Below the pieces are notes generated by a model. It was not told the DNA's origin. It did no database searches and was given only the letters and a program-made list of their open reading frames with translations. The translations under genes were made by a program, and so were the position numbers. A stretch of 64,000 nt of DNA. Origin: Chryseobacterium sp. SC28. Its GTDB lineage: Bacteria > Bacteroidota > Bacteroidia > Flavobacteriales > Weeksellaceae. Below, piece after piece: positions 11,760 to 40,950 of this stretch (its first letter is position 1; each line of letters opens with the position of its first letter). The stretch covers positions 1 through 64,000 of the forward strand of contig NZ_QOVY01000013.1 of NCBI RefSeq assembly GCF_003932955.1, given 5' to 3'.

Positions 11760-14588
11760 TTATAATTCCTTTTTCAAAAACCTCGCTGTCAGGCTTTTCT
11801 TAGACTTGATAATTTGTTCAGGCGTTCCCTCAGCGATGATTTGTCCGCCGTGCTTGCCACCTTCGGGGCCAACATCGATGATATGATCTGCGAGTTTGAT
11901 CACGTCCATATTATGCTCGATGATGATGAAAGAGTTTCCCAAATCCACCAACTGATTAATAGCTTCCATCAAAACTTTGACATCTTCGAAATGAAGTCCG
12001 GTTGTAGGTTCATCCAGAATATAAAGTGTGTTTCCGGTTTGTCTTTTGGAAAGTTCCGTCGCCAATTTTACCCGTTGCGCTTCTCCTCCACTCAAAGTGG
12101 TCGATTGCTGACCAATCGTGATATAACCCAAGCCAACATCCTGCAAAGTCTTGACTTTCAAAAAGATTTTAGGAATGGGCTGGAAGAAATCCACCGCTTC
12201 GTTAATCGTCATTTCCAGAACATCAGAAATCGATTTTCCCTTGTATCGCACTTCCAGAGTTTCTCGGTTGAAACGTTTACCGTGGCAAGTTTCACAATGA
12301 ACGTAAACATCGGGTAAGAAATTCATTTCGATCACCTTCAAACCGCCTCCTTGACAGGTTTCGCAACGCCCGCCTTTCACATTGAAGGAGAATCTTCCGG
12401 CTTTGTATCCTCGGATTTTACTTTCCGGCAATTCAGCAAAAAGATTACGAATATCGGTGAACATTCCCGTATAAGTCGCTGGATTGGAACGCGGTGTTCT
12501 CCCTATTGGACTTTGGTCCACATCTACGATTTTGTCGATGTTATCAATCCCTTCAACACTTTTATAAGGCAAAGGTTCCTGGATCGATCTGTAAAAATGG
12601 CGGTTCAGAATTGGATAAAGTGTTCCGTTTATCAAAGAAGATTTTCCACTGCCCGAGATCCCGGTTACCACCACCAATTTCCCTAATGGAATCTCGAGGT
12701 TTACATTTTTAAGGTTGTTTCCTGTCGCTCCTTTTAGTACAATTGATTTTCCGTTTCCGCCTCGTCTGGTCGATGGAACTTCGATTTTCCTCTTTCCTGT
12801 CAGATAATCTGCGGTGATTGTATCGGCTTTTTTGATGTCTTTCGGATGGCCTTGCCAAAGAATTTCGCCACCGAATTTCCCGGCTCTTGGACCGATATCC
12901 AAAACGTGATCGGCTTGCAAAATCATATCTTTGTCGTGCTCCACCACTAAAACCGAATTCCCGATATCGCGAAGATGTTTGAGCGAGGCAATCAGTCTTT
13001 CGTTATCTCTCTGATGAAGACCAATGGAAGGTTCATCCAAAATATAAAGAACATTGACCAATTGAGACCCGATCTGAGTCGCCAATCGGATTCGTTGAGA
13101 TTCTCCTCCGGAAAGGGTTTTCGAACTTCTGCTCAAACTTAAATAATCTAACCCGACGTCCAGAAGGAACTGCAATCTGGTTTCGATTTCCCTGAGAATT
13201 TCGTATGCAATAATCTGATTTTTGTGACTGAATTTATCTTTGACATCGGCCAACCATTCTTTCAAATCTAATAAAGACAGGCCATTGACTTCTGCAATAT
13301 TTTTTCCATCGATTTTGAAACTCAAACTTTCCTGACGCAATCGCGCGCCTTTGCAAGTGGGGCAAACTTCCTCGGTTGTGAAATTTCGTTCCACCAAAAC
13401 GGCATCATAACTCTCGCGTTCGTCCACCATCTCTTCGAGAATATGAACCAAACCGTCGAAATTGATTTTGATTTTTTTGGAAATTCCGGCGTGCTTCAAT
13501 TCTTTTGTAATGTCCTTATTATGACCATAATAGATGTAATCCAAAGCCTCTTTGGGGATATCTCGGAACGGTGTGGACAGACTCAAATCAAAAACCTCGA
13601 GGATTAATTTGATCTGAGAAAGAATCCATTTGCTGGATTTGATTTGCTCCAAAGGCAGTAGCGCACCCTGATTGATGGATAATTTCTCGTTTTCGACAAA
13701 ATAATCGGTATTCACTTTTTTGATGGTCCCCAGGCCTTTGCACGTTTCGCAGCTTCCTTTTGGCGAATTGAATGAGAATGTATTCGGTTCGGGCAAAGCC
13801 ATCGAATCTCCGGTGACATCGTCCATCAGGTTTTTAGAAAAAAAATGAATTTCGTCATTCCCCATTTCCTGAATGGCGATCAATCCTTCGCCCATTTCGG
13901 AAGCCGTTTTCAGAGATTTTGGCATTCGGAGTTCCGTTGCAGATTCTCCAATGATCCATCGATCTATCACTACTTCCACATCGTGGGTTTTGTAGCGGTC
14001 GAGCTTCAAATCATATTCGATGTCTTGCAAAACGCCGTCGATTCGTGCTTGCGAGAATCCTTTTTTGGAAAGATGGATGAACAATTCGTGGTAATGCCCT
14101 TTCCGCGAACGCACAACCGGCGCCAGGAGATAGACTTTTTTCCCTTTGAAATTCTCTTTGATGGTTTCCAGAATTTGCTCTTCCGTATAGCTTACCAAAC
14201 GTTTCCCGGAACTCATCGAATACGCATCGGAAACTCTGGCGAACAAAAGTCTCAGATAGTCGTACAGCTCGGTAATCGTTCCAACAGTGGAACGTGGATT
14301 TTTATTCGTAGTTTTTTGCTCGATGGCAATCACTGGCGACAAACCCTCAATCTTGTCGACATCCGGCCGTTCCAAACCGCCCAGAAACTGTCTGGCATAG
14401 GCAGAAAATGTTTCGATGTAGCGCCTCTGCCCTTCTGCAAAAATAGTGTCGAATGCCAAGGAAGATTTTCCGCTGCCGGAAAGCCCTGTGATTACAACTA
14501 ATTCGTTTCGTGGGATTTTGACGGTAATATTTTTGAGGTTGTGTTCTCGAGCGCCGTATATTTCGATAAATTCCTGATTATTCTTCAT
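11760..14588 (-). CDS. uvrA: Excinuclease ABC subunit A
   Basis: DNA-damage recognition ATPase of nucleotide excision repair; a UvrA dimer loads UvrB on lesions. Two ABC modules are visible: Walker [10 protein letters not shown] near the N-terminus with signature LSGGESQR, and GISGSGKSS in the second half with LSGGEAQR. Zinc-module CxxC pairs (CETCKG, CPTCKG, CETCQG, CETCHG) are intact, as is the long insertion domain for UvrB binding. At 942 aa it is standard length. It is transcribed alone, divergently from the secreted nuclease gene. A CAAAAATA (-7 box on the minus strand) is at 14614-14621, without a clear -33 partner. Confidence 0.97.
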
Positions 14589-24080: not shown

Positions 24081-24229
24081 TTGGGCAATCCCCTCGCCTT
24101 TCCAAATGCCGCCGCTCGGGTCGGGCTATCCGTTGCAATCTTTTTTGTGGAAGATGTTTTCCCCAATTGATTGGAACATTTACCAACCACAAAAAAGGAT
24201 TTCCACTACTATCCCTATTGCAGCTTCGC
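24081..24229. repeat. Palindromic intergenic element, copy A
   Basis: First of two copies of an unannotated element (copy B at 40811-40950). Shared landmarks in order are TTTGGGC, a C/G-rich spacer, G(G/C)GCTATCC, ATCTTT, a variable stem-loop, AAAGGAT, TACTATC and GCAGCTTCGC. Here the variable stem is ATCTTTTTTGTGG (24138-24150) against CCACAAAAAAGGAT (24187-24200), with one unpaired G near the base of the right arm. It occupies the gene-free 0.78 kb between the ECF-sigma operon and prfB. Confidence 0.7.
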
Positions 24230-24269
24230 AACAAATAAAGTTTTGCGCATCAAAAAAAGATTTTTCCCT

Positions 24270-24675
24270 GAGCGAAGCGCCTTTGCGAACCTTAAAATAT
24301 TTTCAAGAATGTCAAAATCTTCGCGAACTTTGCGTTAAAATTTCTGCTTCAATCTTTAATTCCATAGGAAATACAAGCAGTTGAGATTCCTATTGAACGA
24401 CAATATTGTATTGAAAATGATTCTTGTCTGAGCGAAGCGCCTTTGCGAACCTTAAAATATTTTCAAGAATGTCAAAATCTTCGCGGACTTTGCGTTAAAA
24501 TTTCTGCTTCAAACTTTAATTCCGTAAAAATATAAGCAGTTGAGATTTCTATTGAACGACAATATTGTATTGAAAATGATTCTTGTCTGAGCGAAGCGCC
24601 TTTGCGAACCTTAAAATATTTTCAATTAGATAAAAAAATCTTCGCGCCTTTTGCGTTAAAATTTTTGAATCAACC
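24270..24675. repeat. Tandem array of about 160 bp units (2.5 copies)
   Basis: Units begin with GAGCGAAGCGCCTTTGCGAA at 24270, 24430 and 24589, giving periods of 160 and 159 bp; the third copy stops after about 85 bp, next to prfB. The first two units are nearly identical, differing mainly in a short A-rich stretch near the middle. Each unit includes TTCGCG(A/G)ACTTTGCGTTAAAA, itself an echo of its own first 30 bases. No coding frame is conserved across units and I see no transposase, so this is non-coding repeat sequence. The array directly follows palindromic element copy A. Confidence 0.9.
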
Positions 24676-24720
24676 ATTAAACATTAATTTCTTCTTATTT
24701 TTGCAAAAATCAAAACAAAG

Positions 24721-25833
24721 GTGGTAAACACAGACCAAATAAAAGATATCCAATCCAGAATAGAAGACCTGCACAAGTTCCTCCAAATCGAAAAGAAAAA
24801 AATCGAAATCGCCAACGACGACGAGAAAACAGCCGCCCCCGACTTCTGGAACAACTCCAAAGACGCCGAAGTTTTCCTGAAACAACTCCGTTCCAAAAAA
24901 AAATGGGTGGAAAGCTATGAAGAGATCAAAACGCAATTTGATGATCTTCAGGTTTTGATGGAATTCGCAAAAGAAGACCCAGAATCTGAGAAGGAATTGG
25001 ACGAAGCTTTTCCAAAATTGGTGGAGAAAATCGAAAATCTTGAATTCAAAAATATGCTTTCCAACGAAGGCGATGAACTTTCTGCCGTTCTTCAAATCAC
25101 AGCCGGAGCCGGAGGAACAGAATCTTGCGACTGGGCCAATATGCTGATGCGGATGTACACGATGTGGGCAGACAAGCAAGGGTACAAAATCCGCGAACTC
25201 AACTTCCAAGAAGGCGATGTGGCCGGAATCAAAACGGTGACTCTGGAAATCGATGGGGATTTTGCTTTCGGCTATTTGAAAGGTGAAAATGGCGTTCACA
25301 GATTGGTGAGAATTTCGCCTTTTGACAGCAATGCTAAAAGACACACGAGTTTCGTTTCGGTTTACGTTTATCCTTTGGTGGACGATACGATTGAAATCAA
25401 TATCAATCCGGCCGACATCAGTTTTGAAACAATGCGAAGCTCGGGAGCCGGTGGACAAAACGTAAATAAAGTAGAAACTGCAGTTCGTCTTCGTCACGCA
25501 CCAACTGGAATTATTATTGAAAATTCAGAGTCGCGTTCTCAGCTTCAGAACAAGGAAAAGGCGATGCAGCTCCTGAAATCAAGACTTTATGAAATGGAAT
25601 TGGAAGAACGCCTGAAAGCCAGAAACGAAATCGAAGCCGGAAAAATGAAAATCGAATGGGGTTCGCAGATCCGAAATTATGTGCTGCATCCTTACAAATT
25701 GGTAAAAGACGTCCGTTCGGGATATGAAACCTCGGATGTGGACGGCGTTCTGAACGGGAATATCACGCCTTTTTTAAAAGCTTATCTAATGAATGAAGGG
25801 CAAGCCGGAAGTGGGGAGATGGATGAGTTGTAA
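24721..25833 (+). CDS. prfB: Peptide chain release factor 2, uninterrupted frame
   Basis: Terminates translation at UGA and UAA. The stop-recognition tripeptide SPF is at residues 199-201 and the peptidyl-hydrolysis GGQ at 244-246 within [11 protein letters not shown]. At 370 aa the length is normal. Many bacteria control prfB by a programmed frameshift at a CTTTGA near codon 25; here the corresponding region ([12 protein letters not shown]) has no stop and no slippery site, so that autoregulation is absent. The start is GTG at 24721, as no suitable in-frame ATG lies upstream. A TATTTTTG -7 box is at 24696-24703, so the leader would be about 10 nt. The LRR gene begins 24 nt downstream. Confidence 0.95.
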
Positions 25834-40635: not shown

Positions 40636-40673
40636 AAAACCGGCGGATGACCTTTTGCAAGATCATCCGCCGG
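40635..40673. terminator. GC-rich hairpin after tsaC; T-run only on the minus strand
   Basis: CCGGCGGATGA (40640-40650) pairs perfectly with TCATCCGCCGG (40663-40673) around CCTTTTGCAAGA. On the plus strand the 3' flank is A-rich (AAAAATAAAC), so it is not a standard terminator for tsaC; on the minus strand it is followed by TTTTTTATT. It may still block readthrough or protect the mRNA 3' end. A ten-codon frame MKKKLLLFSF begins at 40685. Confidence 0.6.
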
Positions 40674-40810
40674 AAAAATAAACTATGAAAAAAAAACTAC
40701 TTTTGTTTTCATTCTAATCTCAAAAAAAATACCGAAACGTTTTTGCGGACAGAATTTCCCGATTGCAGTGTTCGATTCAATTTTTAAAGTCAAAATGTCT
40801 TGATTCGGGA

Positions 40811-40950
40811 TTTGGGCGTATCTTCCTATTTTCCCAATCCTAAAAATCCAACGCAAAAATAGGAAGACCGCGCTATCCACTATTATCTTTCTTATGGGCT
40901 AGCAAGCCCATAAGAAAGGATAACCGTTACTATCGCTTACGCAGCTTCGC
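40811..40950. repeat. Palindromic intergenic element, copy B
   Basis: Second copy of the element at 24081-24229. It shows two hairpins. The first is TCTTCCTATTTT (40821-40832) with AAAATAGGAAGA (40856-40867), 12 perfect pairs. The second is ATCTTTCTTATGGGCT (40885-40900) with AGCCCATAAGAAAGGAT (40905-40921), 16 pairs with one bulged G. Conserved borders CGCGCTATCC and TTACTATCGCTTACGCAGCT follow copy A closely, while the stem sequences differ. It fills most of the 430 bp between tsaC and cca. Confidence 0.75.

Follow-up and report, generated by a model that had tools for sequence, protein, structure and literature searches.

The window, by which we mean the whole 64,000-nt stretch of Chryseobacterium sp. 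SC28 DNA that was analysed, contains a two-hairpin palindromic element at positions 40811-40950, between the genes encoding Sua5 and the CCA-adding enzyme. Both flanking genes are on the plus strand, while the conserved, folding strand of this element, and of a second copy at 24081-24229, is the minus strand. The original prediction, which had reported both copies with common borders, an unpaired base and stems that differ from each other but are still self-complementary, described these sequences correctly, but its statement that the element belongs to no named family does not hold. Both copies are members of Flavo-1 (RF01705), scoring 53 bits (40950-40862) and 62.5 bits (24223-24115) on the minus strand in a cmscan search of Rfam, where the gathering cut-off is 42 bits. 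The E-values over the 64 kb window (1.2e-8 and 3e-11), together with the 37 matches above the gathering score in the host genome, exclude chance for both copies. The coordinates of the features are given in Table 1.

Table 1. Features of the two Flavo-1 copies in the window.
Feature	Position	Strand	Details
Two-hairpin Flavo-1 element, border type B-like	40811-40950	-	orthologous element in 9 congeners
Outer helix P0, first arm	40816-40820	-	partner 40938-40942; GCGTA/TACGC; 10/10 sequences paired
Left hairpin hp1, first arm	40821-40832	-	partner 40856-40867; 99.2% paired
Left hairpin hp1, second arm	40856-40867	-	partner 40821-40832
Flavo-1 (RF01705) match, 53 bits	40862-40950	-	cmscan against Rfam
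Core hairpin with A.G/G.A mismatches and bulged base	40869-40937	-	covariance model built here, 50.2 bits
Apical (exchangeable) stem CTTATGGGCT/AGCCCATAAG, 4-base loop	40891-40914	-	
Outer helix P0, second arm	40938-40942	-	partner 40816-40820
Second copy, border type B	24081-24229	-	
Flavo-1 (RF01705) match, 62.5 bits	24115-24223	-	cmscan against Rfam
Second copy, outer helix P0, GCAAT on plus strand	24085-24089	-	partner 24217-24221 (ATTGC)
Second copy, outer helix P0, other arm	24217-24221	-	partner 24085-24089

At 40811-40950, P0 encloses hp1 and the core hairpin and so forms a three-way junction. Both window copies match the full Rfam model, but that model covers the core hairpin only, and P0, which lies outside it, is additional to the published family, as are hp1, the border types, the strand asymmetry and the exchange described below. 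Type-B copies carry P0 as GCGTG/CACGC, GCATG/CATGC, GCAAT/ATTGC or GCGTA/TACGC; it is paired in 10/10 of them, with compensatory two-sided changes at three pairs. The core sequence of the folded strand is ..CCCGAT-N-G-N-A-R-Y-GG-(AAA or CA)-TCC-TTTT..apex..AAAA-GAT-..-R-Y-GG-A-N-AGC-GGG.., with alternating A.G and G.A mismatches at fixed positions (three columns 37/37 and one 34/37 among 37 variants) and a bulged C in 36/37. When the fixed mismatch and bulge columns were recounted over 86 copies, the values were 86, 86, 82 and 85. The pairs beside these mismatches are free to vary in base identity and retain their pairing, and the apical region varied from 12 to 58 nt in the set used.

A covariance-model search of the genome, as proposed in the original prediction, revealed that further copies exist, 37 above the gathering score in the host genome and several weaker ones, and that their stems covary. 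Each of the 22 congeners searched has at least 52 and up to at least 90 matches, and the host has at least 44 at the E-value limit used for the congeners, so that none of the 23 genomes of the genus lacks Flavo-1. In a sample of the phylum, 35 of 296 genomes had matches, as did 16 of 140 genera; in one genus (g4), which is probably Flavobacterium, all listed genomes are rich in Flavo-1, and the genomes of the sister genus g18 range from at least 15 matches to none. Such a patchy distribution is a poor fit to an essential RNA. No match was found in the plasmids and phages searched. The discovery paper considers Flavo-1 to be probably RNA, neither cis-regulatory nor a switch (PMC2864571), and a review counts it with the sRNA families of highest abundance and gives no function for it (PMC9029176). 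Our search of the literature found no paper on Flavo-1 mobility or hairpin exchange. The family is thus already known, while P0, the strand-specific constraint and the exchange of hairpins at orthologous sites are new.

The CCA-tRNA-nucleotidyltransferase of the window is 86-91% identical to Epilithonimonas proteins and 94% identical to a protein of a Weeksellaceae MAG, so that the host most likely belongs to Epilithonimonas. We compared the Sua5-CCA intergenic region across 22 genomes from the genus and 69 named genomes, and Flavo-1 at this site is confined to part of Epilithonimonas, the element being absent from Chryseobacterium and from some congeners. In the closest relative, G002, there is a deletion between short direct repeats, and in G006 the borders are those of the host locus and the stems are different. 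In two further genomes (L132 in G020 and L134 in G013) Flavo-1 gives way to a stretch of about 600-700 nt containing two short ORFs, which we take to resemble a toxin-antitoxin pair. The window sequence that follows Sua5, 40636-40800, is strikingly conserved in all congeners compared and consists of a GC-rich hairpin CCGGCGGATG..CATCCGCCGG that lacks a T run, followed by AATAAACTATGAAAAAAAACTACTTTTTG and GACAAAAAGTCCTGA. No convincing Rfam family matched this stretch; it is possibly an undescribed RNA or leader. Near the other copy, a 113-nt repeat occurs as three direct copies (100/94/61%, spaced by about 160) at 24254-24685, between the second Flavo-1 element and a release-factor gene at 24721 with RF-1/PCRF domains.

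The selection on pairing that had been suggested for these stems is borne out by strong covariation in the paralogues, in the orthologues of the 40811-40950 locus and in P0. Among the paralogues, 95.9% of cells are paired, versus 85.3% in shuffled and 41-53% in slid alignments, and eight pairs show two-sided changes. Ten distinct orthologues at the Sua5-CCA locus keep 98.4% of 43 pairs with seven two-sided changes, and three hp1 pairs have also changed on both sides at this locus. Here the orthologues changed gradually through G.T intermediates, as in G018, where pair 31-79 is at a wobble stage between G-C and A-T; in-place selection on pairing must therefore also act.

Covariation of this strength is what would be expected if Flavo-1 were a structured RNA, either a small RNA or a leader, whose compensatory changes result from RNA folding, and this reading, though doubtful in our opinion, deserves the most attention among the alternatives. 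It is in keeping with the listing of Flavo-1 as a probable RNA by its discoverers and with a G.U-like wobble on one strand: on the Flavo-1 strand the ratio of G.T to A.C is 38:2 in the core of the 37 variants, 32:2 among the ten orthologues of the 40811-40950 locus, whose ancestry is partly common, and 38:6 in apical stems, and 53 of 63 apices are more stable on that strand by folding energy. Since the G.T wobble is tolerated in RNA and DNA alike, the asymmetry is compatible with RNA as well. TAnnTTTG promoter-like motifs, whose position is not fixed, are also more frequent on the 5' side of the Flavo-1 strand (31 versus 8), so that some copies lie in 5' leaders, and some are preceded by such a motif and followed by a start codon on the sense strand. 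Against an RNA, over 51 independent loci Flavo-1 is antisense to both neighbouring genes more often than it is sense to both (23 versus 10, p = 0.035), and the asymmetry is still kept in copies antisense to both neighbours (16:2), indicating that folding matters on a strand that is often missing from the neighbouring mRNAs. Also, in RNA-seq of F. psychrophilum neither the strand nor the transcript is consistent, the Flavo-1 hits being sense or antisense to transcripts and many lying outside them (PMC9723704), and an RNA would not be expected to have whole hairpins swapped at fixed loci, as described below.

Over the 86 Flavo-1 loci, the distance from the right (AGGAGC) end to a stop or start codon tends to be about 2-120 nt, while the left end is farther from genes and nearer to promoter-like motifs. 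About 59% of copies are co-directional with replication (171 versus 119, p = 0.003) when the origin is set at dnaA, a count in which orthologues are non-independent and which is weakened by a GC skew suggesting that the origin may lie elsewhere. A role as intrinsic terminator was rejected, because in the stems the T-tract comes first and the A-tract second, opposite to the order in a terminator, and several copies lie beyond a terminator.

The original prediction had also raised the possibility that the central arm of the element is exchanged, and this is seen directly at orthologous loci. Type-A copies were clustered by flank similarity into 20 groups with 55 orthologous pairs, using hairpin and flank identities only; orthology is less certain for pairs with weaker flanks (e.g. 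L113/L118 and L011/L048). Hairpin identity is at least 0.78 in 26 of these pairs and at most 0.67 in the other 29, with none between, and 14 of the 20 groups contain a low-identity hairpin pair. Even when only pairs whose identity reaches 0.80 in one flank are considered, 10 of the 21 have low hairpin identity. The flanks of L046/L099 are 0.87 and 0.86 identical and the hairpin 0.63, and L062/L106, on the single-contig chromosomes of G022 and G004, are 87-92% identical over 3 kb with a hairpin identity of 0.54 and the outer arms kept. In the sister species G010 and G016 (L170/L171), the near-flanks are about 99% and 93% alike, as estimated from the alignment, and the whole hairpin has been replaced, while the type-C border, including a right border of roughly 35 nt, is kept across the swap. 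In L165/L179 it is the apex that has been replaced.

The exchange concerns whole units. Variable core pairs among orthologues have changed on both sides in 23 of 24 cases, and none is at a G.T or A.C stage; the subtypes of the inner left and right arms agree in 86/86 copies, without hybrids, while arm subtype and apex length class combine freely in the same copies. Swapped hairpins are 92-95% like hairpins at other loci, which is above their likeness to their own orthologous site, and the best donor candidate seen within the same genome is 92% identical. The gap in hairpin identity, the two-sided changes, the lack of hybrids and the likeness to other loci are as block exchange predicts, and point mutation, template switching and repeated insertion are disfavoured because each fails one of these observations. 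Neither a recombinase or transposase nor a donor event could be identified behind the swaps, no clean target-site duplication was found, and about 1.5 Mb contained no autonomous version with a long insert.

Unlike hairpins at one site could in principle be independent insertions of mobile elements into a hot spot, with no exchange at all. The absence of the element from the Sua5-CCA locus in Chryseobacterium and some congeners, and the presence of type-E elements in one sister species and not in the other, are in line with such insertions; but the bases of the hairpins and the element-specific borders survive the swap (the right border in L170/L171, the outer arms in L062/L106), and we consider this explanation improbable. 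Less probable still is that pairing was restored by template switching within quasi-palindromes, and not by selection or exchange: both arms would indeed change together without wobble intermediates, as observed, but this process should erase the near-invariant A.G/G.A mismatches and the bulge, it yields no strand asymmetry, and the new hairpins match family subtypes from other loci.

A related repeat, type E (GCAGCCCGACTTGAGYGGAAATCC...GGGAGCGGAAGGCGGATTAGCTGCCC), scored 25-30 bits at L172 6916-7005, L181 6544-6633, L176 19378-19459, L302 19274-19341 and L284 16-105. Type-E elements are polymorphic between sister species, with filled and empty sites that lack a clear duplication, and the G010 orthologue of L181 has a different stem within unchanged borders. 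The stems of Flavo-1-like elements can be interrupted by other short repeats, CCTTCGACAAGCTCAGGATAAACTACA and ACTTCGTTAGGTTT; such insertions occur at L170, about 13700-14100 of G010 (concatenated positions 390840, 65652), and in the G010 orthologue of L183.

The least probable alternative, that Flavo-1 is a REP-like element moved by a Y1 (RAYT/IS200-type) transposase, finds an echo in its imperfect hairpin, strand polarity and many copies and in the occurrence in Bacteroidetes of RAYT subclass 2.6 genes flanked by 'atypical secondary structures' (PMC6006769), but G005 and G016 have no match to Y1_Tnp (PF01797) and yet at least 80 and at least 88 Flavo-1 copies, subclass 2.6-like genes are limited to 7 of the 23 genomes in the genus, and no strong Flavo-1 match lies within 1.5 kb of the 30 Y1 genes covered. 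A RAYT/Y1-type transposase had been proposed for examination in the original prediction, and Flavo-1 turned out not to be linked to such genes. No copy was found within 1.5 kb of Y1 genes with our model R1 at 30 loci or with the Rfam model at 20 of these, and both covariance models recover known Flavo-1 copies; nine wider regions around RAYT-like genes yielded a single match, about 2.7 kb away. Two subclass 2.6-like genes that we examined are flanked by palindromes unlike Flavo-1, e.g. CCCCGATGTCGCGGATTTGCAATCCGTG. RAYT regions with palindromes of their own are L086 (1224-1400 and 1947-2000) and L087 (about 1330-1370 and 1990-2040), and at L074 1279-1324 (minus strand) a weak match to the Acido-Lenti-1 RNA (36.6 bits, cut-off 37) lies beside a Y1 gene with the motif YIKNQKEHH.

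Flavo-1 nevertheless resembles REP in several ways, while failing the tests for being REP. The REP, REPIN and BIME sequences of Gammaproteobacteria are short imperfect palindromes with sub-families that have alternative stem bases (PMC3733652), and evolution of REP by gene conversion was proposed in 1988 (Higgins et al., listed in PMC3116915). With these Flavo-1 shares a short imperfect palindrome, many intergenic copies, a polarity given by mismatches and a bulge, and alternative stem bases; it differs in having no linked RAYT, a variable apical region and exchange that is seen at orthologous sites. The flanks of the Flavo-1 consensus contain no conserved tetranucleotide corresponding to the REP tag GTAG (or CGTC) at the hairpin foot, and GNAR inside the Flavo-1 arm is variable. 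ERIC, BOX and other MITE-like intergenic repeats are imperfect palindromes of about 100-150 bp between genes, and the centre of BOX is modular; Flavo-1 can be likened to them by architecture, in size, palindromy, intergenic position and modular centre. The attC sites of integrons fold in a strand-specific manner and have an extrahelical base and a variable terminal structure. In general architecture Flavo-1 is similar in all three respects, but its copies are scattered singly, unlike the cassette arrays of attC.

The explanation that we prefer, to which we assign a probability of roughly 0.5, is that Flavo-1 is a dispersed DNA repeat, an imperfect palindrome that folds as a single-stranded DNA hairpin and whose arm or whole hairpin is swapped between copies. 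Family membership, covariation, strand asymmetry and unit-wise exchange at orthologous sites are observed. From the strand asymmetry, the gene orientation and the published RNA-seq we infer that single-stranded DNA is the functional form; the donors would be dispersed copies of the family, and a dedicated or host recombination activity would act on the hairpin. One strand, when single-stranded, would fold into a hairpin with its fixed A.G mismatches and bulge, and some protein may recognize this mismatched and bulged hairpin. Copies would mostly be inherited in place, under selection for one foldable strand, and occasionally the distal arm or the whole hairpin would be replaced as a unit from another family member, by ectopic gene conversion or by hairpin-targeted re-insertion that leaves the base and flanks intact. 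That both arms always switch together favours either an event that acts on the hairpin when it is folded or extruded, or gene conversion with subsequent selection, and the two are equally compatible with the present data. Part of the mismatch conservation and the lack of hybrids could be due to selection after asymmetric exchange. A more speculative extension, which we think rather unlikely, is that a single-stranded DNA recombination activity in Flavobacteriales recognizes the folded strand and swaps hairpins between copies in the manner of cassettes, cutting both arms at equal depth, whereby the pairing would be passed on as one unit.

Among the predicted small RNAs of Bacteroidetes, Flavo-1 is listed as one of the most abundant. 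Should it be a DNA element whose hairpins can be swapped, this RNA annotation, which is applied tens of times per genome, is misleading. It would follow that covariation alone is insufficient evidence for RNA, since pairs can move as blocks, and the old question of gene conversion in palindromic repeats would become testable with existing genomes. The exchange of hairpins at orthologous sites is the most valuable part of these results, and it is measurable in existing strain collections.
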